Source: Myxosarcina sp. GA_180221_E-2-1-MAG-40_15
GTDB taxonomy: Bacteria > Cyanobacteriota > Cyanobacteriia > Cyanobacteriales > Xenococcaceae
Assembly: GCA_020692205.1 (NCBI GenBank)
Contig: JAIMKV010000040.1
Location: forward strand, 1-44,939
Direction of reading: 5' to 3'
Length of the DNA stretch: 44,939 nt
The notes under the pieces were generated by a model. It was not told the DNA's origin, made no database searches, and worked only from the letters and a program-made list of their open reading frames with translations. A program made the translations under genes and the position numbers. The number at the start of each line of letters is the position of its first letter. Position 1 is the stretch's first letter. This document shows positions 5,210 to 29,959 of the stretch, piece after piece.

Positions 5210-5211
5210 TT

Positions 5212-7281: not shown

Positions 7282-7314
7282 TCAATTGAGACTAATAAAT
7301 TAAGCAAAAAAATT

Positions 7315-8256: not shown

Positions 8257-8269
8257 ATGGTAAAAAGCT

Positions 8270-9592: not shown

Positions 9593-9603
9593 TGCAGGGG
9601 AGC

Positions 9604-9631: not shown

Positions 9632-9634
9632 ATT

Positions 9635-10489: not shown

Positions 10490-10572
10490 CGGATATTGGC
10501 TTAAAAAATTTCAAGATAAATATTTTAGACCAGTTAGTTTAATTAGTTTACCTTAAAGGAGCAAGAGCGATT

Positions 10573-12708: not shown

Positions 12709-12757
12709 TCAAAAAATGGTTGACTAAATTTGGCATTAATAATTGGGGATTACTGTA

Positions 12758-14170: not shown

Positions 14171-14198
14171 GTAGGGGCGATTGGCCAAACGCCCCTAC
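14171..14198. repeat. Palindromic element A (GTAGGGGCG...CGCCCCTAC)
   Basis: A 28-bp nearly perfect palindrome between convergent genes: left arm GTAGGGGCG, centre TTGGCCAA, right arm CGCCCCTAC, with one A/A mismatch pair. It could act as a bidirectional hairpin. Its right end supplies the TAG stop of the MFS gene (14195-14197, read on the - strand). Confidence 0.85.
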
Positions 14199-15526: not shown

Positions 15527-15564
15527 GCACGGGAAGCTAATCCTTTAGGGCGAATCGCCCCTAC
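15465..15564. repeat. Palindromic/MITE-like element B
   Basis: A roughly 100-bp member of the same family, with a TAGGGGCGGGTTCGG-type left end and TAGGGCGAATCGCCCCTAC at the right end, plus an internal repeat of CCTTTAGG. It covers the start of the MFS gene and supplies the TAG stop (15561-15563) of the TPR gene. Confidence 0.75.
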
Positions 15565-16460
15565 AGCAGCAAAAAGGCGATCAATCGCTGCCACTCATTG
15601 ATATCACCATTATTACTAATTAAAATTTGATTGAGATCATCAAAATCTCGATGAATACTGTCTTTAAGTTGACTAGCTTTTTGCTCAAAAGCTTGAACTT
15701 TTTGCTTATTTGACTTGCCTCTGAGCAAATATCGCCAAAAATAGTCAAATAAATCTACCAGGAGTTGAAAAGGAAAAGGAGCATAATCATAGTCTAGACT
15801 AGCTAAATAAAACTCGTATTCACTATCCATAACGCAAATAATTAAATATTCTAGATAGTTGAGTTTGACAAAAGGACTTTGAGGAAAGTCTTGGAGTGCC
15901 TTACGCATCAGTGCTAAAGATGGCTGCGATTGCCCTTGATTGAGGAGAAACAGGGCATAGCGTTTAATCGCCCAAGTATAAGCAGGGTTGAGATGCAAAA
16001 CCTGTTGATAATAACTGTGGGCGAGAATCGGTTGCTGATTTTTTTCCAGAAAATAGGCGTAATGAGACAAAGTCCAAAGATCTGTGTCATATCCCTCTAT
16101 TAATGCCTTTTGATACCATTTTGCAGCTTGCTCCATCTTGAAGTTTCGTTCGAGAATATAAGCATAGTAATTTGCTCCTGAACGGTTGGGTTGCAGACTA
16201 AAAGCCTTTTCTAAATGCCAGAGAGCCAGATTATAGTCATAAACCTTGCCATAACATTGACCAATGCCATAATAATAGTCAGAGGTTTCTTGCTGCTGGA
16301 GTAAGTAGCGATACAAAGACATTGCCACATTATAAACATCTTCTTCCCTCAGAAAATCTGCTACCTCGGTAACTGTGGTTAACGGATAATTCGGCAAAAT
16401 ATCTATAATTTGCTGATATTCTTGGTTGCGAGCTAATTCCAGTAATCTATTGTTAGTCAT
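15561..16460 (-). CDS. TPR-repeat protein
   Basis: About 299 residues made largely of degenerate tetratricopeptide repeats. Examples are DYYYGIGQCYGKVYDYNLALWHLEKAF, AAKWYQKALIEGYD, AHSYYQQVLHLNPAYTWAIKRYALFLL. No catalytic domain, signal peptide or membrane segment is visible, so it is probably a cytoplasmic scaffold. The ATG at 16460 is preceded by AAAGGAAAT at good spacing. The last residues (IAFLLL) run into the end of repeat element B, whose TAG ends the frame; the native C-terminus may have been altered. It is in the same direction as the polyketide genes but a role there is not evident. Confidence 0.8.
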   Translation of the reverse strand: MTNNRLLELARNQEYQQIIDILPNYPLTTVTEVADFLREEDVYNVAMSLYRYLLQQQETSDYYYGIGQCYGKVYDYNLALWHLEKAFSLQPNRSGANYYAYILERNFKMEQAAKWYQKALIEGYDTDLWTLSHYAYFLEKNQQPILAHSYYQQVLHLNPAYTWAIKRYALFLLNQGQSQPSLALMRKALQDFPQSPFVKLNYLEYLIICVMDSEYEFYLASLDYDYAPFPFQLLVDLFDYFWRYLLRGKSNKQKVQAFEQKASQLKDSIHRDFDDLNQILISNNGDINEWQRLIAFLLL

Positions 16461-16533: not shown

Positions 16534-17529
16534 TTAAGATAATGAAACTGTCTCAGCAAGACGATTTTGAGCATCAAAAAACTTGAGCTGTCGATATAGC
16601 ATTGATACCTGGGGCATTTGTACCCCAGCTTGCCAAGCTTGACGTAAAGGATTGCCAAAAATTGCTTCTACTTCCAGAGATCGCCCTTGGTCAAAATCTA
16701 CCTTCATACTGGTTTGGTAATGTTTCATGGTGGCAGTTTGTTTGAGTCGCTTCTGAATATAGAGAGCGGGAATTTGGCGACCATGTGCCAAGGCTGCTGC
16801 CACTATTTCTACCATTAACTGTTCGATCGAGGTAAGAACATCTGCATTGCCAATTAGTTCTTCGATAGCTGAATTTAAGATTACCGAAAGCCCGTTAAAA
16901 GGAATATTGCAGATCAACTTTTGCCAACGCGCTAAAAATAAATCTTCATGTAGTTGAATCATCACATTTGCACTGCTAAAGTCGGCTGCAATCTGACACA
17001 ATCTGGTCGTCACTCCCGCAGCAGCATAGCCAGGAGCATAATCAGCTAAAGTGATCAGCCCATAGTCGAGATGACGAATATGACCCGCCCCCACCTTATA
17101 GTTGAAGGTAAAACAAATACCTCCCATCAGGCGATCGCTACCCACGATTTGAGCGATCTCTGCTTCCATACCCCAACCATTTTGTAGTACCAAGACTACG
17201 CCATTTTCCTTAAGAACCTGAGGCAAAATTCGCGGTAAAAGATAATTATTAGTGGTCTTGAGCGCGACAATAACCACATCACACTGAGGCATCTGGTTAG
17301 CATTGCGATAAGCTCGAACCGAAGGTAGAGTAAAATCTCCATCAGGAGACTCAATCACCAGCCCATGTTGACTAACATACTGATAATCACGATTGAAGAG
17401 AAAATGTACCTCAAAACCCGCTTTTTGTAAGCAAGCTCCATAAAAACCGCCAATTGCACCAGTGCCAATAATGGCGTAGCTACGTCGCGATCGAGGGTCA
17501 TTGCCAGTGAAATTTAATTGCGGTTTCAT
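16534..17529 (-). CDS. Ketopantoate reductase-family protein (PanE/ApbA-like)
   Basis: NADPH-dependent 2-dehydropantoate 2-reductase family, 331 residues. A Rossmann loop IIGTGAIGGFYGACLQKAG lies near residues 20-38, the VVIVALKTTNNY lysine segment and the VLQNGWGMEAE loop follow, and the C-terminal domain opens with the catalytic-type WQKLICNIPFNGLSV (Lys and Asn as in PanE). Its family role is pantoate synthesis for CoA and 4'-phosphopantetheine, which would suit a neighbour of carrier-protein genes, but cyanobacteria carry such genes in many places. Alternatively it reduces another 2-keto acid. It is 81 bases from the preceding gene in the - strand block. Confidence 0.82.
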   Translation of the reverse strand: MKPQLNFTGNDPRSRRSYAIIGTGAIGGFYGACLQKAGFEVHFLFNRDYQYVSQHGLVIESPDGDFTLPSVRAYRNANQMPQCDVVIVALKTTNNYLLPRILPQVLKENGVVLVLQNGWGMEAEIAQIVGSDRLMGGICFTFNYKVGAGHIRHLDYGLITLADYAPGYAAAGVTTRLCQIAADFSSANVMIQLHEDLFLARWQKLICNIPFNGLSVILNSAIEELIGNADVLTSIEQLMVEIVAAALAHGRQIPALYIQKRLKQTATMKHYQTSMKVDFDQGRSLEVEAIFGNPLRQAWQAGVQMPQVSMLYRQLKFFDAQNRLAETVSLS

Positions 17530-17593: not shown

Positions 17594-17615
17594 AACTTTT
17601 GACTTTTGACTTATC
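17594..17615. repeat. Heptanucleotide tandem tract, ACTTTTG unit
   Basis: Two to three copies of a 7-bp unit (ACTTTTG ACTTTTG ACTTATC) in the spacer between the alpha/beta hydrolase and the ketopantoate-reductase-like gene, touching the last codons of the former. Confidence 0.5.
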
Positions 17616-18396
17616 TGCTTACTACAGGCGTACGCAGCAAAAAACCCTCAATTTCTTTGGCTACCTTGGTTGGTTCTTCTACCTGCAAATAGTGACCAGC
17701 ACCAGGGATGTTAACCAGACGAGCATCGGGTATTTGCTTGAGCAACAACTTACTTTTGCGTGGGGAAATAATTACGTCATCAGCACCAGTAATAATTAGA
17801 GTGGGAATCGACAAAGATGCGATCGCTTCACTCAGATCGACAGAGCTAACATCCATAAAATCAGCCGCATCTGAGTTTAAACGAGTGTGCTTAAATTCAT
17901 TTAAAACCAAATTTTTAGCTGCTTCTGGTACTTCAGGGGCAAAACTTTGACGTAAAGTTGCTAAATCCCAGTCCCCACTTAAAGCTGAGGTGAGAAAGTC
18001 GGGATGTAGTTGAATCTTGGCTGCCGTTGTCATTAATACTAATCGTTCGACTCTGTGGGGATAATTTAGAGCAAACTGTATTCCAATTAACCCGCCTAAA
18101 GATTGACCAACGTAGTAAACTTGCTGTTTGATCTTTAGTGCAGTCAAAAAACTGTCAAGAAATTCGGCAACTGCCGCAACGGAATTAGGCACTGTACCAG
18201 ATGTCTCCCCGTGTCCCGGTAAATCCACCACTATCGGGAAAATATCACCATTCAACTGAGATAGCATGGGCAGCCAATGACGGCTACTCCCCCCCGCACC
18301 GTGTACCAGTAACATTATCGGTTTGGAATCGGATTGAGGTATTCCTTGAGGAGCTTGATAATTAACGTTAAAATCGGCAACTTTAATTGATGGCAT
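17611..18396 (-). CDS. Alpha/beta hydrolase
   Basis: Serine hydrolase of the alpha/beta fold. From the preferred ATG at 18396 the protein is 261 residues: oxyanion loop VHGAGGSSRHW at about 31-41, nucleophile elbow GQSLGG with Ser at residue 99, acid in IITGADDVI, and His in PGAGHYLQVE. All three catalytic residues are present. The longer reading from 18450 would add a run of leucines encoded by A/T-rich spacer and is unlikely. In the polyketide block it could release or hydrolyse a thioester or ester, or open a lactone; this is inference from position. It lies 150 bases downstream of the salicylate synthase gene. Confidence 0.85.
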   Translation of the reverse strand: MPSIKVADFNVNYQAPQGIPQSDSKPIMLLVHGAGGSSRHWLPMLSQLNGDIFPIVVDLPGHGETSGTVPNSVAAVAEFLDSFLTALKIKQQVYYVGQSLGGLIGIQFALNYPHRVERLVLMTTAAKIQLHPDFLTSALSGDWDLATLRQSFAPEVPEAAKNLVLNEFKHTRLNSDAADFMDVSSVDLSEAIASLSIPTLIITGADDVIISPRKSKLLLKQIPDARLVNIPGAGHYLQVEEPTKVAKEIEGFLLRTPVVSR

Positions 18397-18485
18397 AATT
18401 TTAAAAAATGATGAGAAATAAAGAAGCAGAAGAAGTAGGAGAAATAACAAATAATAGGTAGTAAATAAATTACTTTCTAAATCAC

Positions 18486-18507
18486 GACTTCCTACTTCTG
18501 ACTTCTG
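18486..18507. repeat. Heptanucleotide tandem tract, ACTTCTG unit
   Basis: Three 7-bp units (ACTTCCT ACTTCTG ACTTCTG) directly abutting palindromic element C; ATTCTG ACTTCT resumes on the other side, as if the palindrome had inserted into the tract. Confidence 0.6.
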
Positions 18508-18534
18508 TACGGGCGAACAGCCGTTCGCCCCTAC
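18507..18534. repeat. Palindromic element C
   Basis: A 28-bp palindrome with arms GTACGGGCGAAC and GTTCGCCCCTAC, in the spacer downstream of the salicylate synthase gene. Same family as elements A, B, D and E. Confidence 0.85.
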
Positions 18535-18546
18535 GAATTCTGACTT

Positions 18547-19872
18547 CTATTCAGATTCCATTACGATGTTGGAAAGCATGGTGTTCATTTTGTTAACCGA
18601 CTCAACATATTCCTTTTCGGGAACAGATTCGCCGACAATACCAGCACCAGCGTTGAGGTAAACACTGTCACCATATTGATATGCTGAACGAATCGCGATC
18701 GCTAGATCTGCTGTTCCGTCACTATCTACCCAACCAATACCACCCGCGTAAAGTCCTCTAGGCTGATCTTCAAGGCGATCAATCCATTCCAGAGCCAGTT
18801 TTTTATTAATTCCCGAGACGGTAATCCCAGGAAAGAGAACTTTGAGAGCATCCCACAAAGATTTATCGGTTTTTAGCTGTCCGCCAACCCGTGAGGAAAG
18901 ATGCTGAACGGTGCGATATTTTTTGACCTCCATAAAGTCAAACACCTGTACGGTTTCAGGCTGACAAACCTGAGCTACTTCTTCCTGTGCTAGCCACACC
19001 GAAAGCGCGTGTTCTTTAACTTCTTTAGCATCGGTAAATAGCTCGTCATGCAGCAGCGCGTCTTTAGCGGGATCGGCTTCGCGGTGTCTAGTTCCCGCTA
19101 AGGGATTAGTAATGACAAACCCGCTAGCATTTACCTCCATCAAAATTTCGGGACTAAAGCCAACCGAGCGCACATCACCTAATTTGAAGCAATAAGAACG
19201 AGCCGCATTATTGCTAGCAGCTCCTAAAGTATAAGTACCTAGCACATCCAGATCGCCTTTAACCTCTACCGAACGAGAAATAATTGCCTTGTGTAGGTCA
19301 CCACGCTGAATTGCCGAGACCAAATCGCCAACTCTAGATTCATACTCTTGATTATCCCCTGCTTCTACAGTTGGAGGAGTAGCCAGATACTCTGGTGGCT
19401 CAGTTTTGGCGGAAATTGCTTCTAAGAGTTTGGTTGGAGAATTAATACTGCGAATATGTACTCCTTTATCGGTAATTCGCAGCTCGATCTCTGGGACAAA
19501 AAAGTACAGCATTGGTTGCTCGATCGCTTTAGAGTAAGCAGAATAAAAGCGAGCAATATCAAAACCGACATAGCCATAAGCCGTCCAATTTTCTACAGGT
19601 AAATGACTCAAAACTGTCTCTACTTGCTTGAGCGGATCGCTAGCTGCCTGAGAGTAAGTTTCGCCCAAATAACTGCTTTCAATGGTATCAGCACTTACCG
19701 CTACATCAGCTAAAGGATTGGCAACTATCCGAACCTCGTTTTCCCCTTCATACATCATATAGTCGCTAAAGACATCTGCGGCGATCGCATTTCGGAGCAA
19801 CATCAAAGGGTCGGTTTTTCCAGGAACAAAAACTTCGTGATAGGTCTGTAAATTATCGGCTAGTAAATACAT
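18547..19872 (-). CDS. Salicylate synthase (MbtI/Irp9-type chorismate-utilising enzyme)
   Basis: Predicted to convert chorismate to isochorismate and on to salicylate plus pyruvate with Mg2+. The 441 residues match the size of the single-domain MbtI/Irp9 group. Signature positions are HKAIISRSVEV with Lys at residue 195, GFSPEILMEV with Glu242, NPLAGTRHR around 256-264, DELFTDAKEVKEHA with acidic metal ligands, FPGITVSGINK, and GAGIVGESVPEKEY near the C-terminus. The SGI-x-K form and the absence of a glutamine amidotransferase favour salicylate or isochorismate synthesis over anthranilate or aminodeoxychorismate. No NRPS is nearby, so a siderophore role is less likely than starter-unit supply for the adjacent type II PKS. 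Confidence 0.87.
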   Translation of the reverse strand: MYLLADNLQTYHEVFVPGKTDPLMLLRNAIAADVFSDYMMYEGENEVRIVANPLADVAVSADTIESSYLGETYSQAASDPLKQVETVLSHLPVENWTAYGYVGFDIARFYSAYSKAIEQPMLYFFVPEIELRITDKGVHIRSINSPTKLLEAISAKTEPPEYLATPPTVEAGDNQEYESRVGDLVSAIQRGDLHKAIISRSVEVKGDLDVLGTYTLGAASNNAARSYCFKLGDVRSVGFSPEILMEVNASGFVITNPLAGTRHREADPAKDALLHDELFTDAKEVKEHALSVWLAQEEVAQVCQPETVQVFDFMEVKKYRTVQHLSSRVGGQLKTDKSLWDALKVLFPGITVSGINKKLALEWIDRLEDQPRGLYAGGIGWVDSDGTADLAIAIRSAYQYGDSVYLNAGAGIVGESVPEKEYVESVNKMNTMLSNIVMESE

Positions 19873-19881
19873 GATCTTGGT

Positions 19882-19910
19882 GATTACTTATTACTGATTA
19901 CTGATTACTG
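19882..19910. repeat. Heptanucleotide tandem tract, ATTACTG unit
   Basis: Three exact copies of ATTACTG plus a degenerate one, directly abutting palindromic element D, in the spacer upstream of the salicylate synthase gene. Confidence 0.65.
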
Positions 19911-19937
19911 TAAGGGCGAACGGCCGTTCGCCCCTAC
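19910..19937. repeat. Palindromic element D
   Basis: A 28-bp near-perfect palindrome with arms GTAAGGGCGAACGG and CCGTTCGCCCCTAC, between the aromatase/cyclase and salicylate synthase genes. Such a hairpin inside an operon could attenuate or stabilise transcript. Confidence 0.88.
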
Positions 19938-19941
19938 GGGG

Positions 19942-20430
19942 TTAAACGGAGACGGTTGCGGGTTTTTTAGCAGACCAAGCTTCGACTCCTTCTTTGATAG
20001 CCTGCATCTGCACTCTGGTATTGCGATTGAGAAAAGCCTCCATTTTTTCTACTGACCATGCGCCTTCAGCAGGCTCAAATCTCTGTTCCCAAGTCATTAC
20101 CGTACCGACATTTTGAGGTAACGCCTCATAAGTCCAGTGAATTTTCATCATCTTGAAAGGAAAGGCTTGCTGGACTCGTTGCGCCTCAGCTTTTTTGCCT
20201 GGTTTATCGATAATGCGGGTGGAAACCCAAGTTCGCGAAGGGCGATCGCCTTCAGGAAAGGTAGTAAGCTGGAAAGTTACTTGATTACCATCGCGTTCTA
20301 AAACCTTAGCCTCTTTATATTCGGTAAACAGTTGCGGCCAAAGTTCAATATCGTTCGTCAAGTCGAAAACGGTGTCAAAGTCTTTTAAAATGACGATGGT
20401 ATTATGAGTGTAACCTGGCAATTCTGACAT
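19942..20430 (-). CDS. Aromatase/cyclase, TcmN/ZhuI-like SRPBCC protein
   Basis: Single START/Bet v1-type domain of 162 residues. It matches the polyketide aromatase/cyclase group closely: NTIVILKDFDTVFDLTNDIELWPQLFTEY at the N-terminus, RTWVSTRIID mid-protein, the HWTYEALPQNVGTVMTWEQRFE strand pair, and the C-terminal helix FLNRNTRVQMQAIKEGVE. In that family the protein binds the ACP-tethered poly-beta-ketone and directs first-ring closure and aromatisation. AGGAG stands about eleven bases before the ATG. It is one of three cyclase-type proteins in the operon and is the strongest single indicator of an aromatic product. Confidence 0.88.
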   Translation of the reverse strand: MSELPGYTHNTIVILKDFDTVFDLTNDIELWPQLFTEYKEAKVLERDGNQVTFQLTTFPEGDRPSRTWVSTRIIDKPGKKAEAQRVQQAFPFKMMKIHWTYEALPQNVGTVMTWEQRFEPAEGAWSVEKMEAFLNRNTRVQMQAIKEGVEAWSAKKPATVSV

Positions 20431-20464
20431 TATGTTGCGTACTCCTAATGTTGTTATGTGGGTT

Positions 20465-20498
20465 AAAAGCTATTAGCTATTAGCTCTTAGCTCTTAGT
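20465..20498. repeat. Heptanucleotide tandem tract, AGCTATT/AGCTCTT units
   Basis: Four 7-bp units (AGCTATT twice, AGCTCTT twice) in the spacer between the PF04199-type cyclase gene and the aromatase/cyclase gene. Confidence 0.65.
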
Positions 20499-20521
20499 TT
20501 TTTGGAAACGTAGTAGCTGAT

Positions 20522-21307
20522 TTAAGTGACTATACCGACAGCTCGAACCCAGCTAGCGTCAAGATCTTTGATCTTTAGAGGAAAACAAGCTACTTGAAAG
20601 CCCGTAGGCGGTAGATGATCGAGGTTTGCCAGTCGTTCGATCTGGATGTATTCCCGTTCCCGTCCGTAAAAGTGGGCGGGCCAAAGATTAGTGCGATCGC
20701 CTGTTTTCCAGAAGTCTTCGAGCATGGTGACAAATGGGCGATCAAATCCATAGGTATCGATGCCGATGACTTTAATGCCCCGATCTACTAGCCATTCAGT
20801 AGCCTCACGGCTCATGCCTGGCGCGTCGCTAAAATACTCTCGTTTACCCCAAAGTCGATCTGTCCCCGTCCACAGCAAGACAATATCTAAAGGCTTAAGT
20901 TCATGCTGAGTTTGCTTGAGGGCATTGTGAATATCGTCAACGGTGATAAACTCTCCCGCTTGTTTATGGGTTAAATCTAAGCGTACTCCAGGGCGATAAA
21001 ACCAATCCAAAGGTAGCTGATCGACGCTACGAGCTGGTTTACCTTCGCTTTCAACGCCGTAATGAATTGGTGCGTCGATGTGAGTACCCATGTGGGTAGG
21101 TAGAGTTACCGTGTCGAGAGTGATAAAAGCGCGATCGGGAAAGTCTTCTACCTGTAGACGACGAGGATCGGATTTAGCTTGGTTGCGAGCTTCTACCTTA
21201 CCGCAAAACTCCTTTGCCCCCCGATGATGATCGAGCCGATCCACCTCTATTTTCATCGGTTCGGAAACCGAGTTTTCGACTAAGACACTAAGGTCAACTA
21301 ACTGCAC
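20522..21307 (-). CDS. Cyclase family protein (PF04199, metal-dependent hydrolase fold)
   Basis: Member of the kynurenine-formamidase/polyketide-cyclase fold. The metal motif reads THMGTHIDAPIHYG (H-x-G-T-H-x-D), with LTHKQAGEFITVDDI, DIVLLWTGTDR, and GIKVIGIDTYGFD as further conserved segments. In actinobacterial type II clusters, relatives such as OxyN and MtmX act in later ring formation. GTG at 21307 is preferred: it starts VQLVDLSVLVEN as the family does and has AGGAG about ten bases upstream, giving a 14-base overlap with the AhpD-like gene. TTG/ATG at 21343/21340 would add an unlikely basic leader. It is probably translationally coupled to its upstream neighbour. Confidence 0.84.
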   Translation of the reverse strand: MQLVDLSVLVENSVSEPMKIEVDRLDHHRGAKEFCGKVEARNQAKSDPRRLQVEDFPDRAFITLDTVTLPTHMGTHIDAPIHYGVESEGKPARSVDQLPLDWFYRPGVRLDLTHKQAGEFITVDDIHNALKQTQHELKPLDIVLLWTGTDRLWGKREYFSDAPGMSREATEWLVDRGIKVIGIDTYGFDRPFVTMLEDFWKTGDRTNLWPAHFYGREREYIQIERLANLDHLPPTGFQVACFPLKIKDLDASWVRAVGIVT

Positions 21308-21623
21308 CTTCGGTTTGCTCCTGTTTTTGCATATAGGCATCAATATGAATCATCGCTTCATCGAGAGCCAAGTTTGTATCGGTAATGCCGACAATGGGGA
21401 GTGCAAGTAAAATAGCGGCGATAATTTCTTCTTTGGTAGCGCCCTCTTCCATCGCGCGTTCGACATGAGTATTAATGCCTCTGAGTCCTCGATGAGCAGC
21501 AAATATACCTAAGATAATTAACTCGTTAGTTTTCATCCCTAGGGGTGAATATTCTCGCGCTGATTTGGCTAGATCGAAAAAACTTTGAGCCACTTCGGGG
21601 GCTTCTTTCATCATATTTTTCAT
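21294..21623 (-). CDS. AhpD/carboxymuconolactone-decarboxylase-like protein without CxxC
   Basis: A 109-residue helical protein of the CMD/AhpD fold, recognisable from FFDLAKSAREYSPLGMKTNELIILGIFAA and THVERAMEEGATKEEIIAAILLALPIVG. Where AhpD proteins carry the peroxidatic C-x-x-C before the conserved His, this protein has GLRGINTH, so both cysteines are missing while the His remains. It cannot work as a thiol peroxidase partner. The fold can also bind aromatic acids or lactones, and a non-redox role in folding, cyclising or binding the polyketide is a reasonable guess. Its ATG directly follows the cupin stop codon with no spacer, and its end overlaps the cyclase gene. Confidence 0.82.
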   Translation of the reverse strand: MKNMMKEAPEVAQSFFDLAKSAREYSPLGMKTNELIILGIFAAHRGLRGINTHVERAMEEGATKEEIIAAILLALPIVGITDTNLALDEAMIHIDAYMQKQEQTEGAVS

Positions 21624-22022
21624 TTAACTGTCTCCTTCTAAAATAATGTGTCCTTCTTTGGGTGATGGTGCTAGAGGGCCAGAGGCAAACACCACCAGAA
21701 TTTCTTCATCGCCGACGTTGTAGATCGAGTGTGCTTTTCCTTGAGGAGTCAACACCGCTTGACCTGCGCGAAAATTTACGTCTCCAACGCCTTCAACCAC
21801 GATTTTTCCTTGACCTCGCAGGACATAGAAACACTCTTCACTGTGAGGATGGGCATGGTTCAAAACTTTGCCGCCAACTGGAACGGTAGCCGTACCCATG
21901 ATCATTTTGGTTGAGCCAACGCTGGTGGGAGAGATCAAAACGTGGATTTCGCCACCTCGATCTTCGATAGTTGCAACGTCCTCTGGGCCCATTGCTAATT
22001 TTTTATTTGTAGTTGTAGTCAT
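21624..22022 (-). CDS. Cupin protein (TcmJ-like position)
   Basis: Single conserved beta-barrel of 132 residues. Cupin motif 1 reads VLNHAHPHSEECFYVLRGQG (H-x-H then Glu), motif 2 reads PQGKAHSIYN, so three His and one Glu for a metal are present. Cupins such as TcmJ and RemF accompany ARO/CYC proteins in aromatic polyketide clusters and aid cyclisation. That role is inferred here from family and neighbours; a dioxygenase is an alternative. No ribosome binding site is visible before the ATG: the six-copy GGGTAAT tract lies immediately upstream, so translation may depend on coupling to the ligase gene. Confidence 0.84.
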   Translation of the reverse strand: MTTTTNKKLAMGPEDVATIEDRGGEIHVLISPTSVGSTKMIMGTATVPVGGKVLNHAHPHSEECFYVLRGQGKIVVEGVGDVNFRAGQAVLTPQGKAHSIYNVGDEEILVVFASGPLAPSPKEGHIILEGDS

Positions 22023-22030
22023 AAGTAACT

Positions 22031-22072
22031 GGGTAATGGGTAATGGGTAATGGGTAATGGGTAATGGGTAAT
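22031..22072. repeat. Heptanucleotide tandem tract, six exact GGGTAAT copies
   Basis: Six perfect head-to-tail copies of GGGTAAT (42 bp), the longest of the heptamer tracts, between the ligase stop codon and the cupin start. Copy number in such tracts is expected to vary between strains. Confidence 0.9.
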
Positions 22073-22105
22073 AGCTACCCTAACCATTAAACTGTCCTAT
22101 CTAAA

Positions 22106-23662
22106 CTAAGGTTGTTGCACTAACTGACGGGCTTTTAACAACGATTTACGATGAATTTTGCCTGTGGAGGTACGGGGTAGCTGATCTAAAAAGTGAATCG
22201 TCTTAGGTGCTTTGAAGTGGGGTAAATTAGCCCGAACAAATTTACGCAGACTATCTTTGAGCTGTTTGGACTCTGCAAAACCAGACTTGAGACTGATATA
22301 TGCCACTACATGAGTTAGATTCTGACCACTATTAGATTCGGGAACAGTGGCTGCATCTAAAACCGCTTCGTGCTGGAGTAAAACGTCTTCAATTTCAAAG
22401 GGAGATACCCATTGACCGCTAACTTTAAACAGATCATCTTTGCGTCCCATAAAGAAGAAATAACCATCTTCATCGCAGAGATATTTATCTCCAGTCCGCA
22501 TGGTGTTACCGTAAATCACTGATCGCGTTTCGCGGTGACGATTCCAGTATTGCAGCATCAGACTACTCCCTTCTACCTGAAGATTGCCAATTTCGCCTCT
22601 AGGTAAATCAAAACCGCGATCGTCAACGATGCGAACGTCATAGCCTGAAACTGGTTTACCACAACTACCAGGACGGCATTCTCCCAAACGATTGGACAGG
22701 AAGATGTGTAAAAATTCACTAGTGCCAATGCCTTCGCAAATCTCTAAGTCGAAGCTACTTTGCCACTTCCGCCAGACGCTTTTGGGTAGCTGTTCTGCGG
22801 CTGAAATACAGAGTCTTAGGGAACTGGTGTCAAGAGGAGCAATTTCTTGAACTGCCCAAATCCCTGAATAAATTGCAGGAATGGCAAATAAAACTGTCGG
22901 TTGATAGCAATTAATATCGGCAATGATGTCAAAAACGTTATTAGCATCAGTTAAAACCGAAGCCGCACCAACCGCCATGGGCATATATAAGGTGTTGCCC
23001 AAACCATAGGCAAAAGGCATTTTGGCTACTGAATAGATAATATCGTCCTGATGCAGTTTCATAGTAGCTTGAGCGTATTCTTCAGCGCAGACTGCCATGC
23101 TGCGATGGAGATGAACTACACCTTTTGGTTTACCAGTACTGCCAGAGGTATAGAGCCAAAATGCTGGTTCGTCAGGAGAAGTGCAGGCAGGGGTAGGTAC
23201 ATGATTTATTTGACTTAACTGCTGCTTAAATGAATCTTCTCCGTCAGTCAGAATCACCTGGCGCAAAAACTCAGAATTATCAAGGGATAGTTGAGCCTGC
23301 CATTCTTGGTTGGTAATTAAAATCTTGGCACGACAATCTTGCAAAATATATTGAATGTCTTCAATCTTACAGGCAGTGTTGATCGGAACAGGAATTGCGC
23401 CCATCCAGATTGCACCCCAAAAAGCAAAGACAAAATCTGGACTGTCAGGTAATAAAATTGCTATGCGGTTTTCTCGCTCTAAACCAAGTTTAAACAGCAA
23501 TCCCGCTGCATGACCGACTTCTTCATTAACTTTACGATAACTGTAGACATCATTCTGGTGGTAAAAAGCAACTCGTTCGCCATTTTCTCGAAAAAGACTA
23601 CTTTTGAGAAAGTAAGCTGCAATATTAAAGATATCAGGCAGTTGTTTATAGGATAAATTCAT
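22106..23662 (-). CDS. Benzoate-CoA-ligase-like adenylating enzyme (predicted salicylate activation)
   Basis: ANL-superfamily adenylate-forming enzyme, 518 residues. The P-loop TSGSTGKPKG is at residues 172-181 within FWLYTSGSTGKPKGVVHLH, a form typical of benzoate-CoA ligases. EGIGTSEFLHIFLSN also matches that group. The hinge MRTGDKYLCDEDGYFFFMGRKDD and the C-terminal catalytic lysine in RTSTGKIHRK are intact. It would activate an aryl acid as the acyl-AMP and pass it to CoA or the neighbouring ACP. With a salicylate synthase in the same operon, salicylate is the obvious substrate, but this is inference. It sits 17 bases after acpS. Confidence 0.87.
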   Translation of the reverse strand: MNLSYKQLPDIFNIAAYFLKSSLFRENGERVAFYHQNDVYSYRKVNEEVGHAAGLLFKLGLERENRIAILLPDSPDFVFAFWGAIWMGAIPVPINTACKIEDIQYILQDCRAKILITNQEWQAQLSLDNSEFLRQVILTDGEDSFKQQLSQINHVPTPACTSPDEPAFWLYTSGSTGKPKGVVHLHRSMAVCAEEYAQATMKLHQDDIIYSVAKMPFAYGLGNTLYMPMAVGAASVLTDANNVFDIIADINCYQPTVLFAIPAIYSGIWAVQEIAPLDTSSLRLCISAAEQLPKSVWRKWQSSFDLEICEGIGTSEFLHIFLSNRLGECRPGSCGKPVSGYDVRIVDDRGFDLPRGEIGNLQVEGSSLMLQYWNRHRETRSVIYGNTMRTGDKYLCDEDGYFFFMGRKDDLFKVSGQWVSPFEIEDVLLQHEAVLDAATVPESNSGQNLTHVVAYISLKSGFAESKQLKDSLRKFVRANLPHFKAPKTIHFLDQLPRTSTGKIHRKSLLKARQLVQQP

Positions 23663-23679
23663 GGTTTCTCTAAAAATAT

Positions 23680-24048
23680 TCAGCTAGCAATTACATGAAC
23701 CAGTACGTAGTCATCACAGCTTGACCAGCTAGCAATCCAATTGGTAAAACCTAGTTTGGTCGCTTGCAACTTAGCTTTGCCGTAGAGCTTAATGGTTAAC
23801 TGAAAATCAGAAACAACTGCTTCAATATCATGCCAGTCAATGCCTGCTAGACCTGTACCCAAAGCCTTTCCCACTGCTTCTTTAGTCGCAAAACAGACAG
23901 CAAAGTACTGATAGGGATGTTTGGCTGAGTGAGCACGATTAATCTCGCCCAGGGTAAACAATAAGCTTAGGGTTTCTCGGTCATAGCGATCAATTAACTG
24001 TGTGATCCGATCTACAGAAGCAATATCGATTCCAATTCCCATCTCCAT
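23680..24048 (-). CDS. acpS: AcpS-type 4'-phosphopantetheinyl transferase
   Basis: Enzyme that moves the phosphopantetheine arm of CoA onto the carrier-protein serine. About 122 residues from ATG 24048: MGIGIDIASVDRITQ at the N-terminus with the metal-binding Asp, and CFATKEAVGKALGTG, the K-E-A-x-x-K-A motif. A longer open frame to 24219 overlaps the ACP gene and reads as non-protein-like, so the later ATG is preferred. Location 82 bases after the ACP gene suggests it is dedicated to that carrier protein, although it could equally be the only holo-ACP synthase of the cell. Confidence 0.87.
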   Translation of the reverse strand: MEMGIGIDIASVDRITQLIDRYDRETLSLLFTLGEINRAHSAKHPYQYFAVCFATKEAVGKALGTGLAGIDWHDIEAVVSDFQLTIKLYGKAKLQATKLGFTNWIASWSSCDDYVLVHVIAS

Positions 24049-24130
24049 TTTGTTAGTGGAAGTTGTTGAGGATGGCGGACAACAGGTAGATAGCTTCACT
24101 ATTTGACTTTTACTATTTAGACAGATACTT

Positions 24131-24436
24131 TTATTTCTGTGGAACAGGGTTCGCGGTTTGAGGTGGTGTTGGCTTTGGAGTTTCAACATAGTTATGAGCT
24201 TCGGAACTAGATTGGGCAACAGCTAGGGCTATTTTTTCGCTAACTTCGGCTAAAGTCATATCTTGACGAGATTCAAGCTTGATATTGATACCCAAACGAC
24301 GTTTTAATCCCAGGGAGATATCAACGGTTTCAGTGGAATCTAGCTGTAAATCCTGACGAATTGAAGCTGTATCGGTAAGTTCCTCTTCAGAAAAGCCCAG
24401 GTCGATTAGAACGGATTTGAGTGCAGGATCGATCAT
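24131..24436 (-). CDS. Acyl carrier protein of type II PKS
   Basis: Stand-alone carrier protein of 101 residues. The attachment motif is LQLDSTETVDISL with the modified serine at residue 34 (DST rather than the common DSL), followed by KRRLGINIKLESRQDMTLAEVSEKI of helices II-IV. A Pro/Gln-rich tail of about 25 residues (ETPKPTPPQTANPVPQ) extends past the usual end and is unusual for fatty-acid ACPs. ATG at 24436 is preceded by GAGG with seven-base spacing; the TTG at 24439 is not needed. It lies 36 bases after the chain-length factor, the standard KS-alpha, KS-beta, ACP order of minimal type II PKS clusters. Confidence 0.88.
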   Translation of the reverse strand: MIDPALKSVLIDLGFSEEELTDTASIRQDLQLDSTETVDISLGLKRRLGINIKLESRQDMTLAEVSEKIALAVAQSSSEAHNYVETPKPTPPQTANPVPQK

Positions 24437-24472
24437 CAATTAACCTCACTTAAATAAAAACTAATTTGAATG

Positions 24473-25687
24473 CTATTTACTAATAACAAAGGAAGCATTA
24501 ACTCCTTCGCGGGCGCGGGAATTAACTAACGTCCGTGAAACAGAGCTAGATTGAGCCTGAGTAACAAAGTTTAGCTGGCAGTCTTGGTCGGGATTAACTG
24601 ACTGCATCACAGGTAGTTTGCCCGTTTCCATTGCCAAAAGGCTACAGGCAACTTCAGTAGTACAGCTAGCCCCATAAAGATGACCAAATAAAGATTTGGG
24701 AACGGTAACGGGTACATCAGGAGCAGTTTGGGCAAATACGGCACTAATGGCTTCTGCCTCTAGGCGATCGCCTGTTTGAGTTCCGCAACCTTCGGCAAAC
24801 ACAATATCAATATCTGAAGCAGACAAGTTGGCATTGGCTAAGGCTTTATTCATTGCCCGCTTAAAGTGAATTCCTTGACTTGGATTGGTGTCAGTAGTCA
24901 TGCTGCCCGAAGTTACTTCACCGTAAATCTTTGCTCCACGGGCTATGGCGTGTTCTTCTGACTCTAAAACTAGGACGGTGCTACCTTCTCCTAAGACAAC
25001 GCCCGATCGCTCTCGATCAAAAGGCTGATAGGCTGTATCTGGATTATCAGCAGCACTAATTTCTCCAGTTTCGTAGTAGCACACCATGCCAAAGCGCGTG
25101 ATAGGAGCTTCTGAACCACCAGTTAAAACCACGTCGTTATGTCCCTGCTGAATCGACTTAACGCCAAAATACAAACCGCTAGCACCACTGGCGCGATCGC
25201 AGACAAAGCTCTTGCTGTAGCCGCGAATACCATAACGGATAGTAACATAACCCTGGGCCGCAGTGGGGAACCAGGCAGTAGCCTGCCAGGGGTTAACCAT
25301 AGTTGGGCCATCGTTATATAGTTCTTTAAAACCCCGTTCGCAGATATCCCAACCCCCCGCATTGTTACCAAACCAAACCCCAACGCGATAAGAATCCTCG
25401 GTTGCTAAATCGAGGTCAGCATCTGCTAGAGCTAGATCGCTGGCGGCTAGGGCATAGTGAGTAAAGCGATCGGTTTTAACCACTAGACGGCGGGGAATAT
25501 AGTCTCCTGGCTTAAAGTCAGAAATCGCTCCCGCTACTTTGGTGGGAAAATTAGTCGTATCAAAGCGATCGATCTCGCTAATTGCCGATTTTCCCTCGGT
25601 CATCTTCTGCCAAAATTCATCTTTACCAATCCCCGAGGGATTAATAATTCCAATTCCCGTAACGACTACCCGTTTTTTGTCTGTCAT
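24473..25687 (-). CDS. Type II PKS KS-beta / chain-length factor
   Basis: Ketosynthase-fold partner that pairs with KS-alpha and sets polyketide length. From ATG 25687 (MTDKKRVVVTGIG) it has about 404 residues. Aligning ASG and I-Q-x-G with catalytic ketosynthases places Arg165 (in VCDRASG) at the active-site cysteine, and Glu299 (in FAEGCGTQTGD) at the first histidine; only the GH of SLFGHLYGAS remains. Known CLFs usually have Gln at the Cys site, so Arg is unusual. It follows KS-alpha closely; a TTG at 25726 would overlap it by four bases. A catalytic FabF role is excluded if the alignment holds. Confidence 0.88.
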   Translation of the reverse strand: MTDKKRVVVTGIGIINPSGIGKDEFWQKMTEGKSAISEIDRFDTTNFPTKVAGAISDFKPGDYIPRRLVVKTDRFTHYALAASDLALADADLDLATEDSYRVGVWFGNNAGGWDICERGFKELYNDGPTMVNPWQATAWFPTAAQGYVTIRYGIRGYSKSFVCDRASGASGLYFGVKSIQQGHNDVVLTGGSEAPITRFGMVCYYETGEISAADNPDTAYQPFDRERSGVVLGEGSTVLVLESEEHAIARGAKIYGEVTSGSMTTDTNPSQGIHFKRAMNKALANANLSASDIDIVFAEGCGTQTGDRLEAEAISAVFAQTAPDVPVTVPKSLFGHLYGASCTTEVACSLLAMETGKLPVMQSVNPDQDCQLNFVTQAQSSSVSRTLVNSRAREGVNASFVISK

Positions 25688-25722
25688 CTTTGCACTAATT
25701 AATGTTAATTGAACCCTTACTG

Positions 25723-27003
25723 TCAAAGCGCAGCCGTTGCTGCTGGTTTTACCTTGCGCAGAATCGCTGCCGAGTGAATGCCGCCAAAACCCGACGCAGT
25801 TAACATAGCTGTATTCACTTCCTGTTCTCTAGCAACGTTGGGAACATAGTCGAGGTCGCAAACTGGATCAGGAAATTCATAATTAGCCGTGGGATGAATT
25901 GTGGAAAGCTCGATCGCGCCTAAGGTGGCAACTACCCCGACTAAACTAGCCGAAGAAAGAGAGTGTCCGATCATCGATTTGGTAGAACTAATTGGCACTT
26001 GATATGCCCGATCACCCAACACTGTTTTATAAGCATTGGTTTCAAAAACGTCATTTTGGGGTGTAGAACTACCGTGAGCGTTGATGTAATCTAGTTCTTC
26101 TGGGGCAACTTTACCCGACTCCATAACTTTCCTAACCACAGCGGCCATCGGAATACCGTGATCGGGTAAATCGGTCATGTGGAAAGCGTTACTAACGCTA
26201 GAGTAGCTAACTACCTCAGCATAGATGTGCGCTCCTCTAGCCAGGGCATGATCCAACTCCTCTAGCACCAAAACCGCAGCCGCCTCACCAATGACAAAGC
26301 CACCCCGCTTGGCATCAAAAGGACGAGAAGATTTGGCAGGTTCGCAGTCGGCTACGGACAATGAGCCGATTACATCCAAGGTGGCATAGGTCAAGCTAGT
26401 TAAAGGAGCTTCAGTTGCTCCCGCCATCATTACCGACATTTCGCCAGACTGGATTAGTTCAAAGCTCAACCCCAAAGCATCCAACCCCGCAGTACAGCCA
26501 GTAGAGAGCGAAGTGCAATGACCCTGGAAGTCATACTTGCGTGCCAACAAGGCAGCCGAATAATTAAACATACCTGCATTGTAGAAATTCTCTCCTGTTT
26601 CTACATAGCTAATTTCTTCTGTACCTCGATTGGTACACTGCTCGTAAATCTTTTGAATATAGGGAGTTCCGCCAATTGCCGAAGAAAAAATCGTTCCTAG
26701 GGTTTCAGGATCTTCCTGGGCTAAATCTATGCCCGAATCTTCGAGAGCGATCGTTCCGGCACATACGCCAAACTGAACCACACGATCCTGTTCGATTAAG
26801 TGTTCAAATTCTGCACCCGAACTATGCTGGGATAAATCAAAATCTAACACTCGACATAAGACGTTACTCTTAATCCCCATCGCCTCCATTTCAGGATCTG
26901 CGGTTAGAAACGACTCCCCTCCGATGGCATTTTTCCAAAATTGCTCCTTGCCAATACCTAAAGGAGCGATCACTCCAATACCTGTAATTACTACTCGTTT
27001 CAT
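25723..27003 (-). CDS. Type II PKS KS-alpha
   Basis: Catalytic ketosynthase that condenses malonyl-ACP with the growing chain. It is 426 residues long with a full active site: Cys170 in SLSTGCTAGLDALG (the TGCT-x-G form seen in aromatic KS-alpha), His310 in YINAHGSSTPQND, and His347 in STKSMIGHSLSS. It starts with MKRVVITGIGVIAPLGIG. Together with the inactive partner directly downstream it forms the heterodimeric KS/CLF pair that distinguishes type II PKS from fatty-acid synthesis, where FabF acts as a homodimer. It is the second gene of the operon, 49 bases after the MTHFR-like gene. Confidence 0.9.
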   Translation of the reverse strand: MKRVVITGIGVIAPLGIGKEQFWKNAIGGESFLTADPEMEAMGIKSNVLCRVLDFDLSQHSSGAEFEHLIEQDRVVQFGVCAGTIALEDSGIDLAQEDPETLGTIFSSAIGGTPYIQKIYEQCTNRGTEEISYVETGENFYNAGMFNYSAALLARKYDFQGHCTSLSTGCTAGLDALGLSFELIQSGEMSVMMAGATEAPLTSLTYATLDVIGSLSVADCEPAKSSRPFDAKRGGFVIGEAAAVLVLEELDHALARGAHIYAEVVSYSSVSNAFHMTDLPDHGIPMAAVVRKVMESGKVAPEELDYINAHGSSTPQNDVFETNAYKTVLGDRAYQVPISSTKSMIGHSLSSASLVGVVATLGAIELSTIHPTANYEFPDPVCDLDYVPNVAREQEVNTAMLTASGFGGIHSAAILRKVKPAATAAL

Positions 27004-27052
27004 ATTGTTTAAGTCAAAAATAACTAGATTGAATTTTCTTTCTGACGCACCC

Positions 27053-27964
27053 TTAAGCAGCGATTGACTCTCGTAATTTTGCTGATTCTACAAGCTGAGC
27101 AATACAGTTGCGAGCATGAGCCGAGCGAAAATGTAGACCCCTAATTCCTTCAATAGCCTTGATCTTGGCAATCAGCTCTAAATTAAACTGAAAACTGGCG
27201 GACTGACTACGCTTAACTGTAGTAAATAACCAGTCAGGAACGTTTAAACCTGCCCATCTATGCAACAGATTTAATTCTTTCTCAGATTTAAAAGGATACA
27301 TAGCCGCGATAAAATAAGCTTTACGGTGTAGTCCTCTCCTAACTGCTGCCGTCATCCACTGCTGCAAAGACTTAAGATCAAATGTCGCCTGTAGCTGAAC
27401 AAATTTGGCCCCACAATTTATTTTGGCTTCAAGATGATCTAAGTTAGCCTCAAGATCTTGAGATTTTACTTCAGTAAATGCCACCGTTCCGACAAAAAAG
27501 TCAGGGGCTGACATAATCTTTTCACCGTTAAACATACGACCACATTCGGTTAAATTATTAATTGCGGCGATCGCTTCAGTGGTACTCATGTCCTGAGCAT
27601 CCTGAGCCTGTGGATCGCTACCTACAGAACAAGGATAACCACCAACCACAATCAGATTGCGAATTCCCAAAGCAGCTAAACCTAAGAGATCGCTTTGCAG
27701 GGCAATACGGTTACGATGCCGCAGAGTCATCTGAACGACTGGCTCGATCCCTGCGTGCCAGACAAACTGAGCTGCAACTAAATTGGATAACCGTGCTTGC
27801 GCTAGAGCATTATCGTTGATCTGGATTACGTCCATGTATGCCTCAAGCTTATCGGCGATCGCCATTAACGGACGTAAATTATGGTGACGGGGTGGTGTTA
27901 GTTCAGCAGATAAGACGAAATGACCAGCAGCTAACAACGTTTGTAGGCGACATGAAGCAGTCAT
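27053..27964 (-). CDS. Methylenetetrahydrofolate-reductase-like protein (non-canonical)
   Basis: TIM-barrel protein of the MTHFR/MetF superfamily, 303 residues. Family-like segments are FVLSAELTPPRHHN (the Glu of the catalytic strand is kept), DVIQINDNALAQARLSNLVAA, GIEPVVQMTLRHRNRIALQSDLLGLAALGIRN, and HFRSAHARNCIAQ. The segment that carries the conserved Asp in MetF (TGDP in the paralogue at 36570) reads IVVGGYPCSVGSD here, so this Asp is missing and true 5,10-methylene-THF reduction is doubtful. As the first gene of the polyketide operon it may supply a one-carbon unit, or use the fold for another flavin reaction. The role is unknown. Confidence 0.8.
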   Translation of the reverse strand: MTASCRLQTLLAAGHFVLSAELTPPRHHNLRPLMAIADKLEAYMDVIQINDNALAQARLSNLVAAQFVWHAGIEPVVQMTLRHRNRIALQSDLLGLAALGIRNLIVVGGYPCSVGSDPQAQDAQDMSTTEAIAAINNLTECGRMFNGEKIMSAPDFFVGTVAFTEVKSQDLEANLDHLEAKINCGAKFVQLQATFDLKSLQQWMTAAVRRGLHRKAYFIAAMYPFKSEKELNLLHRWAGLNVPDWLFTTVKRSQSASFQFNLELIAKIKAIEGIRGLHFRSAHARNCIAQLVESAKLRESIAA

Positions 27965-28460: not shown

Positions 28461-28943
28461 ATGAAAGTTCTGTTTAAAAATAGTGCTACAGTAGAGATTC
28501 GCAAGCTTTATAAACGCACGGCTGAAATTGTCAAACCTCCAAGGCAAGCCTCAGCACTACAAAGAAATAAGTCCCCAAAACACACTTTAATTTCAGAGAC
28601 AATAACCGTCAAAGAATTACTAGTGAAGCGTTCAATCCCCACTATTGTTACCTATCCAGTTCCAGGAGAAAATACCGTCAATAGCATTACTTATATCGAG
28701 CCTAATCAAAATACTGGTAAAGGATTAGTTCAGATTAATCAAGCGCAATATTTTGAAAATGTACCGCCAAATGTGTGGAATTTTTGTGTAGGTAATTATT
28801 GTGTCTGTCAAAGATGGCTCAAGATTAGAGAAGGGACTACTTTAGATCGGCAAAGTATTCAAGACTATCAGCGTCTGGTCATGTTAATTAGCGAAACTAT
28901 TGATTTAATGAACAACGTTGATTCACAGTTGCTGGCTAACTAG
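28461..28943 (+). CDS. Stand-alone type ISP restriction/modification C-terminal domain-like protein
   Basis: A 160-residue protein. From about residue 63 it resembles the C-terminal (specificity) domain of single-chain type ISP restriction-modification enzymes: TYPVPGENTVNSITYIEPN, GLVQINQAQYFENVPPNVW, FCVGNYCVCQRWLKIREG, and DYQRLVMLISETIDLMNNVD. The first 60 residues are basic and unrecognised. No methylase, helicase or nuclease domain is in the window, so this is either a remnant of a larger enzyme or one of the small stand-alone relatives. The ATG at 28461 is the only good start. The family call rests on motif memory and could be wrong. Confidence 0.6.
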   Translation: MKVLFKNSATVEIRKLYKRTAEIVKPPRQASALQRNKSPKHTLISETITVKELLVKRSIPTIVTYPVPGENTVNSITYIEPNQNTGKGLVQINQAQYFENVPPNVWNFCVGNYCVCQRWLKIREGTTLDRQSIQDYQRLVMLISETIDLMNNVDSQLLAN

Positions 28944-29044
28944 TTCTCTGGGCAGAGGTAATTGGGCGATGAAAAGAATTGCTACTCTTGAGTCCAGACT
29001 TTTTGCTTGTTGACCAAGTTCACTTTACACAACTAAAAAAATTG

Positions 29045-29959
29045 ATGATGAAAACAGCGTGGGTATTTCCAGGACAAGGCTCTCAAAGCTTAGGGATGGG
29101 AGCAGATTTGGTCGATATTCCTTTTGTTCAGGCTCGACTAGAACAGGCTCAAGATATTCTCGGCTGGGATGTAGCAGAAATTTGCCTCAACCAAGAATTA
29201 AAATTATCTCAGACACTTTATACACAGCCCTGCTTGTATATTGTCTCAACGATTTTGGCAGATTTGCTCAAGGATGCAGGCTTCCAGCCTTCTCTAGTTT
29301 CAGGTCATAGTTTGGGAGAATATGCCGCTTTATATGCAGCGGAAGTTTTTAGTTTTGAAACAGGTTTAAAATTAGTTCAGCGTCGGGCAGAACTAATGAC
29401 AAGTGCGCCTTACGGTATTATGGTAGCCTTGATTGGATTTAATCGCGATCGCCTTGAGGAACAAATTTCACAGACATCGGGTGTAGTTATCGCTAACGAC
29501 AATCATAACGGTCAGATAGTAATTTCTGGTACGACAGAAGGAGTCAAGGCATTATTAGACAAGGTAAAAGTTAGACGTATCGTACCACTTGACGTTAGTG
29601 GAGCTTTTCATTCGCCATTGATGGCAGAAGTATCGCAAGAATTTAACCAAATTTTACAAAGGGTAACTTTTCAACCAGCTAAAGTCCCGGTAAAGTCTAA
29701 CGTTGAACCTCTAGCGGCTATTGAAGCAACAATCTTGAAAGAGCGTTTGATGCAACAGATGACTAGTCGAGTTCGATGGCGTGAGATTATCAACCGCTTA
29801 GCTCAAAAAGACTTGGATCAAGTGATCGAAATCGGTCCTGGTAAAGTTTTAACCAATACAATTTTACGAATGTATCCCGACATGAAGCTAGAAAATATTA
29901 GTAGTGATTTGGAACTAGCAAGGTTTAAAAATGTCAATGCCTTAAAAGCCATTGCCTAA
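29045..29959 (+). CDS. fabD: Malonyl-CoA:ACP transacylase
   Basis: Moves malonyl from CoA to ACP for fatty-acid or polyketide synthesis. From ATG 29045 (or 29048) the protein is about 304 residues: KTAWVFPGQGSQSLGMG at the N-terminus, nucleophile serine in SGHSLGEYAALYAA, QRRAELM with the substrate-binding Arg, VSGAFHSPLM with the catalytic His, and a C-terminal EIGPGKVLTNTI. All catalytic residues are intact. It faces away from the PKS operon, about 1.1 kb from its first gene. No other malonyltransferase is in the window, so it may serve both pathways or be the housekeeping copy; sequence alone does not decide. Confidence 0.92.
   Translation: MMKTAWVFPGQGSQSLGMGADLVDIPFVQARLEQAQDILGWDVAEICLNQELKLSQTLYTQPCLYIVSTILADLLKDAGFQPSLVSGHSLGEYAALYAAEVFSFETGLKLVQRRAELMTSAPYGIMVALIGFNRDRLEEQISQTSGVVIANDNHNGQIVISGTTEGVKALLDKVKVRRIVPLDVSGAFHSPLMAEVSQEFNQILQRVTFQPAKVPVKSNVEPLAAIEATILKERLMQQMTSRVRWREIINRLAQKDLDQVIEIGPGKVLTNTILRMYPDMKLENISSDLELARFKNVNALKAIA

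Follow-up and report, generated by a model that had tools for sequence, protein, structure and literature searches.

The closest described relatives of the locus reported here are gloPKS, a type II polyketide synthase (PKS) of the cyanobacterium Gloeocapsa sp. PCC 7428, and the thermorubin PKS of Laceyella sacchari, whose likeness to gloPKS was already pointed out in PMC11744666. According to the available text of that paper, the ketosynthase (KS) and chain length factor (CLF) of PCC 7428 were reconstituted in vitro with an acyl carrier protein (ACP) altered at two positions, onto which the cognate ligase loads salicylate. Given salicylate, the synthase formed C29H20O10 and C29H22O11, and a 13C-malonyl-CoA shift of 22 units, equal to 11 malonyl units, matched thermorubin; without salicylate it formed C24 and C26 products, an orange/brown mixture made from malonyl-CoA alone (PMC11744666). 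We analysed a 12-gene minus-strand operon in a 44,939-nucleotide contig of Myxosarcina sp. GA_180221_E-2-1-MAG-40_15 (JAIMKV010000040.1, C43 of the 131 contigs of a 4.87 Mb genome; the whole contig is called the window below). To judge from its genes and their order, the operon very probably encodes a salicylate-primed type II PKS of the thermorubin/gloPKS kind.

The operon and its described relatives

The operon runs from 27964 down to 17611, with an MTHFR-like gene first and an alpha/beta hydrolase gene last:

27053..27964, - strand: MTHFR-like protein, operon gene 1 (PF02219, Pfam 2.3e-27)
25723..27003, - strand: KS-alpha ketosynthase (KS-alpha clade; best solved relatives 6smo_B and the actinorhodin KS 1tqy_A)
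24473..25687, - strand: KS-beta/CLF (CLF clade; ATG start inferred from relatives, mechanical open reading frame (ORF) from 25726)
24131..24436, - strand: ACP with LQLDST motif including the phosphopantetheine (Ppant) serine (start inferred; weak NCBIfam ACP matches and alignment with 16 relatives)
23680..24048, - strand: AcpS-type phosphopantetheinyl transferase (the longer, mechanical ORF from 24219 matches PF01648 at 7.4e-13; start set from relatives)
22106..23662, - strand: salicylate (benzoate-family) CoA ligase (TIGR02262, 497.7 bits against a benzoate-CoA ligase cut-off of 375.25; PDB 2v7b, 8.2e-104)
21624..22022, - strand: cupin (PF07883, 1.3e-15)
21294..21623, - strand: carboxymuconolactone decarboxylase family protein (CMD; PF02627, 3.8e-12)
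20522..21343, - strand: PF04199 metal-dependent cyclase family protein (PF04199, 4.8e-37; start uncertain)
19942..20430, - strand: TcmN-like aromatase/cyclase (ARO/CYC; PDB 2rer (TcmN), 4.5e-31)
18547..19872, - strand: salicylate synthase (SAS; TIGR03494, 356.4 bits, above the NCBIfam equivalog cut-off of 325.15; MbtI, 9.4e-69)
17611..18450, - strand: alpha/beta hydrolase, final gene of the core in common with Laceyella (PF00561, 3e-30)

All genes named in the initial annotation were found on the minus strand within 17611-27964, and the short spacers it described were confirmed, with gaps between neighbours of -50 to 96 bases. The MTHFR-like, CMD and hydrolase genes come in addition to that set. 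The starts of the CLF (25687), ACP (24436) and AcpS (24048) genes were placed by comparison with relatives, the mechanical ORFs appearing too long. The ACP gave only weak NCBIfam ACP matches and no match in the Pfam search, and family scans found no ketoreductase among the operon genes. The G+C content of the operon (17611-27964) is 44.6%, against 40.8% for the whole window.

The gloPKS locus (L049) has the same core order as the window, with the MTHFR gene before the core, a ketopantoate-reductase-like (KPR) oxidoreductase gene after it and a TPR gene nearby. Identities between the window and PCC 7428 proteins were 82% for KS-alpha, 81% for the PF04199 protein, 77% for CLF, 76% for both CMD and cupin, 74% for the ligase, 72% for ARO/CYC, 70% for SAS, 67% for ACP, 63% for the hydrolase, 61% for KPR, 59% for TPR, 57% for AcpS and 55% for MTHFR. 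The ACPs have a Q/S/T motif in common, the LQLDST of the window containing the same residues as gloACP Q31/S34/T35 (PMC11744666). The loci differ in that a NACHT gene adjoins gloPKS but not the window cluster, an MFS gene adjoins the window cluster, and the window ACP has a longer C-terminal tail. By clade and core neighbours, the window cluster is classed as an orthologue of gloPKS.

In Laceyella sacchari (L039, taken as the thermorubin cluster from the species name and PMC11744666), 11 core genes are colinear with those of the window at 36–65% identity, and both clusters have an Arg-type CLF. By contrast, the flanks of the Laceyella core encode two methyltransferases (LCM and class I), a cupin of the ARD type and a ferritin-like protein (DUF455, 28.2 bits, under the cut-off of 34.3), none of which has a counterpart among window ORFs 8270-37475 or the compared cyanobacterial flanks; conversely, no match for MTHFR, KPR or TPR was found in the Laceyella locus. 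Because its flank genes are missing from the window, we do not assign the window to the thermorubin pathway, and which of them thermorubin needs is a matter of inference.

Seventeen loci were compared with the window. The 11-gene core from KS-alpha to the hydrolase was complete and colinear in 11 of them, namely Laceyella and all ten cyanobacterial loci long enough to show it, including that of Phormidesmis ULC007 (L036), which also has MTHFR and TPR. The ligase and salicylate synthase, on whose conservation in related clusters the initial annotation had staked its reading, were thus present in all 11. Accessory genes were more variable among the ten complete-length cyanobacterial loci (MTHFR in eight, KPR in seven, and TPR in eight plus G007 on re-examination). 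The remaining loci comprised a short Rhizonema contig with four visible core genes; Orenia (L041), without a match to salicylate synthase or AcpS, its ACP being found in the alignment set; a rearranged Streptomyces oryzae locus without a match to cupin, CMD or PF04199; and three with the core in parts only. Since gene order and content recur in other genomes, the cluster is not a chance assembly.

More distant clusters have part of this arrangement. In the Firmicutes, a Priestia megaterium plasmid (L058), an Apilactobacillus kunkeei plasmid (L060) and Orenia encode KS-alpha, CLF, ACP and ligase in the window order, which in L058 and L041 continues with cupin, CMD, cyclase, ARO and hydrolase. 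They differ from the window in having a methyltransferase gene between ACP and ligase, as in Laceyella, and no salicylate synthase match was found in the stretches examined, that of L060 being only 9 kb. Actinobacterial type II PKSs, represented by a Streptomyces plasmid (L059) and actinorhodin (1tqy), have a KS-alpha/CLF pair, an ACP and an aromatase/cyclase as in the window; the L059 stretch has an adenylate-forming enzyme and no listed salicylate synthase.

Ketosynthase phylogeny and a proposed salicylate-primed pathway

A maximum-likelihood tree was reconstructed from 39 proteins (17 KS-alpha, 17 CLF and five cyanobacterial FabF, including the source genome's own). The rows were chosen by hand, omitting further FabF rows as well as near-identical copies in the same or sister clusters, and several actinobacterial and lactobacillar rows drew a long-branch warning. 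KS-alpha, CLF and FabF each formed one clade, with support of 100/99, 100/100 and 100/100, respectively, so that neither window protein branches with FabF. The eight cyanobacterial KS-alpha (98/95) and the eight cyanobacterial CLF (100/97) formed clades of their own, with Laceyella and other Firmicutes placed beside both.

The Cys, His, Lys and His of the active site were retained in all 17 KS-alpha proteins. In the window CLF, Arg replaces the active-site Cys and Glu replaces the His. Among the 13 thermorubin-like CLFs, the Cys position was Arg in 12 and Lys in one (Apilactobacillus), and the His was replaced by Glu in every case. Gln is the usual residue at the CLF active-site position, and outside the thermorubin-like group it was found in the Streptomyces plasmid CLF, which differs from the window in this respect; one Propionibacterium (actinobacterial) CLF had Arg and two CLFs had Thr. 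The Arg is encoded in the window at 25194-25222 and occurs also in relatives. Arg or Lys at this position may be linked with ligase-loaded starter units.

Functional residues of the other enzymes were also conserved. Salicylate synthase positions K195, E242, T261, E287, R395, E421, E424 and K428, which we take to align with catalytic or metal-binding residues of MbtI, were invariant in 13 rows aligned to MbtI. The same held for ARO/CYC Y38, R72 and N135 in 15 rows, presumably the functional residues of TcmN, and for the PF04199 motif HxGTHxDxPxH in 14 rows. The ACP motif D-S-x-E was invariant, with D34-S35 in 17 rows (the window and 16 relatives). By its sequence features, which include a KS-alpha/dead CLF pair, a discrete ACP with a Ppant serine and an aromatase/cyclase, the window system is a type II aromatic PKS.

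A salicylate synthase and a CoA ligase lie within this PKS operon, in a core order common to Laceyella and PCC 7428, and the orthology with gloPKS implies that the window cluster should act like it. In the proposed pathway, the salicylate synthase, its family assigned here, would convert chorismate to salicylate, which the benzoate-family ligase would activate and load onto holo-ACP, as does the 74%-identical Gloeocapsa enzyme in vitro. KS-alpha/CLF would then add malonyl units, most likely 11 as with the orthologue in vitro, to give a C29 poly-beta-ketone. With no ketoreductase detected among the operon genes, the chain should stay unreduced. Folding it into fused aromatic rings would fall to the TcmN-like ARO/CYC together with the PF04199 protein, possibly helped by the cupin and CMD, and the hydrolase would release or trim the product. 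Because the Laceyella flank genes have no counterpart in the cyanobacterial flanks compared, the product would carry the thermorubin skeleton and not all of its tailoring. The native compound is expected to be coloured, UV-absorbing and phenolic.

Several points weigh against this pathway. It leaves five proteins without an assigned role (MTHFR-like, KPR-like, TPR, cupin and CMD). The orthologue was reconstituted with a doubly altered ACP, and malonyl-only C24–C26 products also came from the minimal synthase (PMC11744666); priming in the cell could accordingly be mixed. In the available text, its authors leave open whether the in vitro products equal the cellular ones (PMC11744666). As the window proteins are 55–82% identical to those of PCC 7428, chain length could differ. 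On a cursory look the ketosynthase assignment might also seem doubtful: fabF is the top NCBIfam model for each of the two KS proteins, at a score under its cut-off, and the best solved relatives of the CLF are FabF entries, before the actinorhodin CLF. A misassignment of FabF proteins was ruled out by the tree, although model and structure searches rank FabF first for the CLF, and the KS/CLF identity rests on the tree because it alone separates both proteins from FabF.

The salicylate priming and malonyl extension proposed in the initial annotation are supported by the in vitro result on the orthologous PCC 7428 synthase with its 11 malonyl units (PMC11744666). Its claim of novelty held in part: no native cyanobacterial product of this combination was found in the open literature searched, but a cyanobacterial salicyl-primed type II PKS is already described in PMC11744666. 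The window cluster adds one member to the thermorubin/gloPKS kind, and the mechanism itself is already known.

Distribution and flanking genes

Genome contigs from 84,980 species were scanned with a CLF alignment using two exact peptide patterns, for which reason the resulting count is a lower bound. The scan matched 28 stretches, 12 of which encode relatives. CLF identities to the window were:

Pleurocapsales LEGE 10410: 91%
Chroococcidiopsidaceae metagenome-assembled genome (MAG): 76%
Gloeocapsopsis crepidinum: 76%
Phormidesmis priestleyi ULC007: 74%
Stenomitos frigidus ULC18: 72%
Rhizonema MAG: 69%
Laceyella sacchari: 63%
Orenia: 50%
Streptomyces oryzae: 50%
three actinobacteria: 35–39%

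In whole-genome searches the gene was present in 10 of 388 genomes of the window's order and in two of a phylum sample of 386. The four carriers in a class sample of 388 were the source genome, G041, ULC18 (G856) and ULC007 (G868). Two of 42 genomes in ULC007's order carry it, ULC007 and ULC18, and the other member of ULC007's genus does not. It was found in six of 19 genomes of the PCC 7428 family and in three of 13 of the window's own genus, to which LEGE 10410 (G004) belongs. Order, phylum and class counts include the source genome, the ULC007-order and PCC 7428-family counts include their centre genome, and the samples overlap. The cluster is rare and patchy even among close relatives.

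The operon is bordered in the window by the following genes outside the initially annotated range:

16534..17529, - strand: KPR oxidoreductase (PF02558), accompanying the cluster in some lineages
15561..16460, - strand: TPR protein (Pfam TPR), often accompanying the cluster
14195..15526, - strand: MFS transporter, possible exporter (PF05977), also adjoining the cluster in LEGE 10410 and G007
28979..29959, + strand: FabD-like acyltransferase, divergent neighbour (PF00698), also a neighbour in L034 and L046

The FabD-like protein is possibly a malonyl supplier or merely a housekeeping enzyme. A 160-aa ORF at 28461-28943 (+), kept next to the cluster in L034 and L046, matches type ISP restriction enzymes over their C-terminal specificity domain only (PF18135).

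A divergent gene of 776–819 aa lies upstream of the PKS operon in eight cyanobacterial loci, with mutual identities of 44–97%:

L035: 2657-4987
L036: 4548-7007
L038: 4615-6963
L040: 1382-3739
L047: 15551-18004
L048: 756-3119
L049: 15630-17993
L050: 1310-3667

Both scanned copies are NACHT (STAND) NTPases, and the window, L034 and L046 showed no such gene next to the cluster.

A sulfated exopolysaccharide-like operon at 139-14146 (+) converges with the PKS operon and encodes WecG, four GT2 glycosyltransferases, Wzx-type and Wzy_C proteins, two sulfotransferases, and Wzc-like and GH39-like proteins. WecG-like genes adjoin the cluster in L040, L047, L048, L049 and L050, and Wzy-like genes in L048 and L050. 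We leave this operon out of the PKS system because no such matches were found in the stretches examined around the LEGE 10410, G007, ULC007 and ULC18 clusters; the neighbourhood is not conserved.

Candidate products

Gloeocapsin, dark and halochromic, is a rock-surface sunscreen pigment of unsettled structure, and a link to the cluster makes the question of its origin testable. Phormidesmis nigrescens ULC007 is among its reported producers, together with Gloeocapsa and Solentia. Drawing on Storme 2015 and Lara 2022, the available text of PMC10359912 describes it as UV-screening and probably anthraquinone-like, or else a coumarin or flavonoid. PMC11156808, as far as available, lists it as a sheath pigment laid down in the extracellular matrix. 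Neither biosynthesis genes for gloeocapsin nor a link between it and polyketide synthesis were found in the open literature searched.

That the PKS cluster makes gloeocapsin is a tentative product assignment, compatible with the salicylate-primed mechanism, that we consider possible though rather unlikely. The reported producer ULC007, described as an axenic strain, carries the whole core (L036; G868), a question fixed before the genome scan, and the cluster is rare, with ULC007 among both its four carriers in the class sample and its two in ULC007's order; it also occurs in Gloeocapsa PCC 7428, in Gloeocapsopsis and among Pleurocapsales. Seven ketosynthase matches were found in ULC007: the KS-alpha/CLF pair, one FabF (75% identical to that of the source genome), one incomplete match within a frame of 411 aa, and three that together belong to a single reducing type I line. 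This line is the sole other PKS locus of ULC007, has KR, DH, ER and aminotransferase domains and neighbours a P450 and an AMP-binding protein, among others. Type III PKS (PF00195) was rejected as the source of the ULC007 pigment because it has no match there; five of seven cluster-bearing genomes, ULC007 among them, had none, with one match in PCC 7428 and one weak match in G004, and five of 14 control genomes matched. The other ketosynthases being FabF, a partial frame and reducing type I, with no type III match, ULC007 has no aromatic-type PKS detected other than the type II cluster.

Against this assignment, ULC007 is the one sequenced reported producer, and the pigment report names it P. 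nigrescens while the genome is P. priestleyi; we treated them as one strain by number. No Solentia genome, nor Gloeocapsa compacta, is among the named matches of the contig scan, although related genera are, and the neighbouring exopolysaccharide genes are not conserved. A small C15–C16 anthraquinone would be incompatible with a C29 synthase.

A fuller version is likewise speculative: gloeocapsin would be a salicyl-primed type II polyketide, and its synthesis a trait of ancient standing in cyanobacteria that most of their lineages have since lost, with the window holding a Pleurocapsales member of the cluster. Between the window and ULC007, KS-alpha (78%) and CLF (74%) identities are near that of FabF (75%), so that a recent transfer between these lineages is unsupported. 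In the six pairs of four genomes, KS-alpha identity was 2–9 points over FabF and CLF within about 4 points of it. These values are in line with an old trait; because KS-alpha exceeds FabF in all six pairs, older transfers may have occurred.

Alternatively, the product may be a thermorubin-like antibiotic against competitors and not a screen pigment, an assignment we consider about as probable as gloeocapsin. Thermorubin is a ribosome-targeting antibiotic; the core is colinear with that of the thermorubin species, and the MFS transporter gene adjoins the cluster in the window, LEGE 10410 and G007, but the Laceyella methyltransferase, ARD and ferritin-like genes have no counterpart among the compared cyanobacterial flanking ORFs.

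It is very improbable that the salicylate goes into a siderophore while acetate primes the PKS: the minimal gloPKS does take malonyl-CoA alone (PMC11744666) and an SAS-ligase pair also occurs in siderophore-like clusters on two cyanobacterial plasmids, but in all ten complete-length cyanobacterial loci the pair is part of the PKS operon, the PKS ACP is the carrier onto which the orthologous ligase loads salicylate (PMC11744666), and no non-ribosomal peptide synthetase (NRPS) or iron-uptake family was matched among the window ORFs scanned, 139 to 29959. The two plasmids, of Chroococcidiopsis CCNUC1 (L056) and Pseudanabaena ABRG5-3 (L057), encode an SAS 63–65% identical to that of the window beside a benzoate-CoA ligase, within NRPS/type I PKS clusters with TonB-type receptors. 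These clusters probably make salicylate siderophores, and the SAS-ligase pair looks like a module shared across cluster types.

Were the salicylate-primed synthase of the window and its relatives to make gloeocapsin, the pigment, which the title of Lara 2022 (as cited in PMC10359912) puts forward as a biosignature in palaeobiology and astrobiology, would acquire a genetic marker, an evolutionary history and a place in a class of structures. Should the product be another compound, the window still contributes a member, from a genus that includes a Pleurocapsales genome, to a rare family of aryl-primed aromatic synthases of which only part has been studied, and the common core of these synthases is defined by the comparison.

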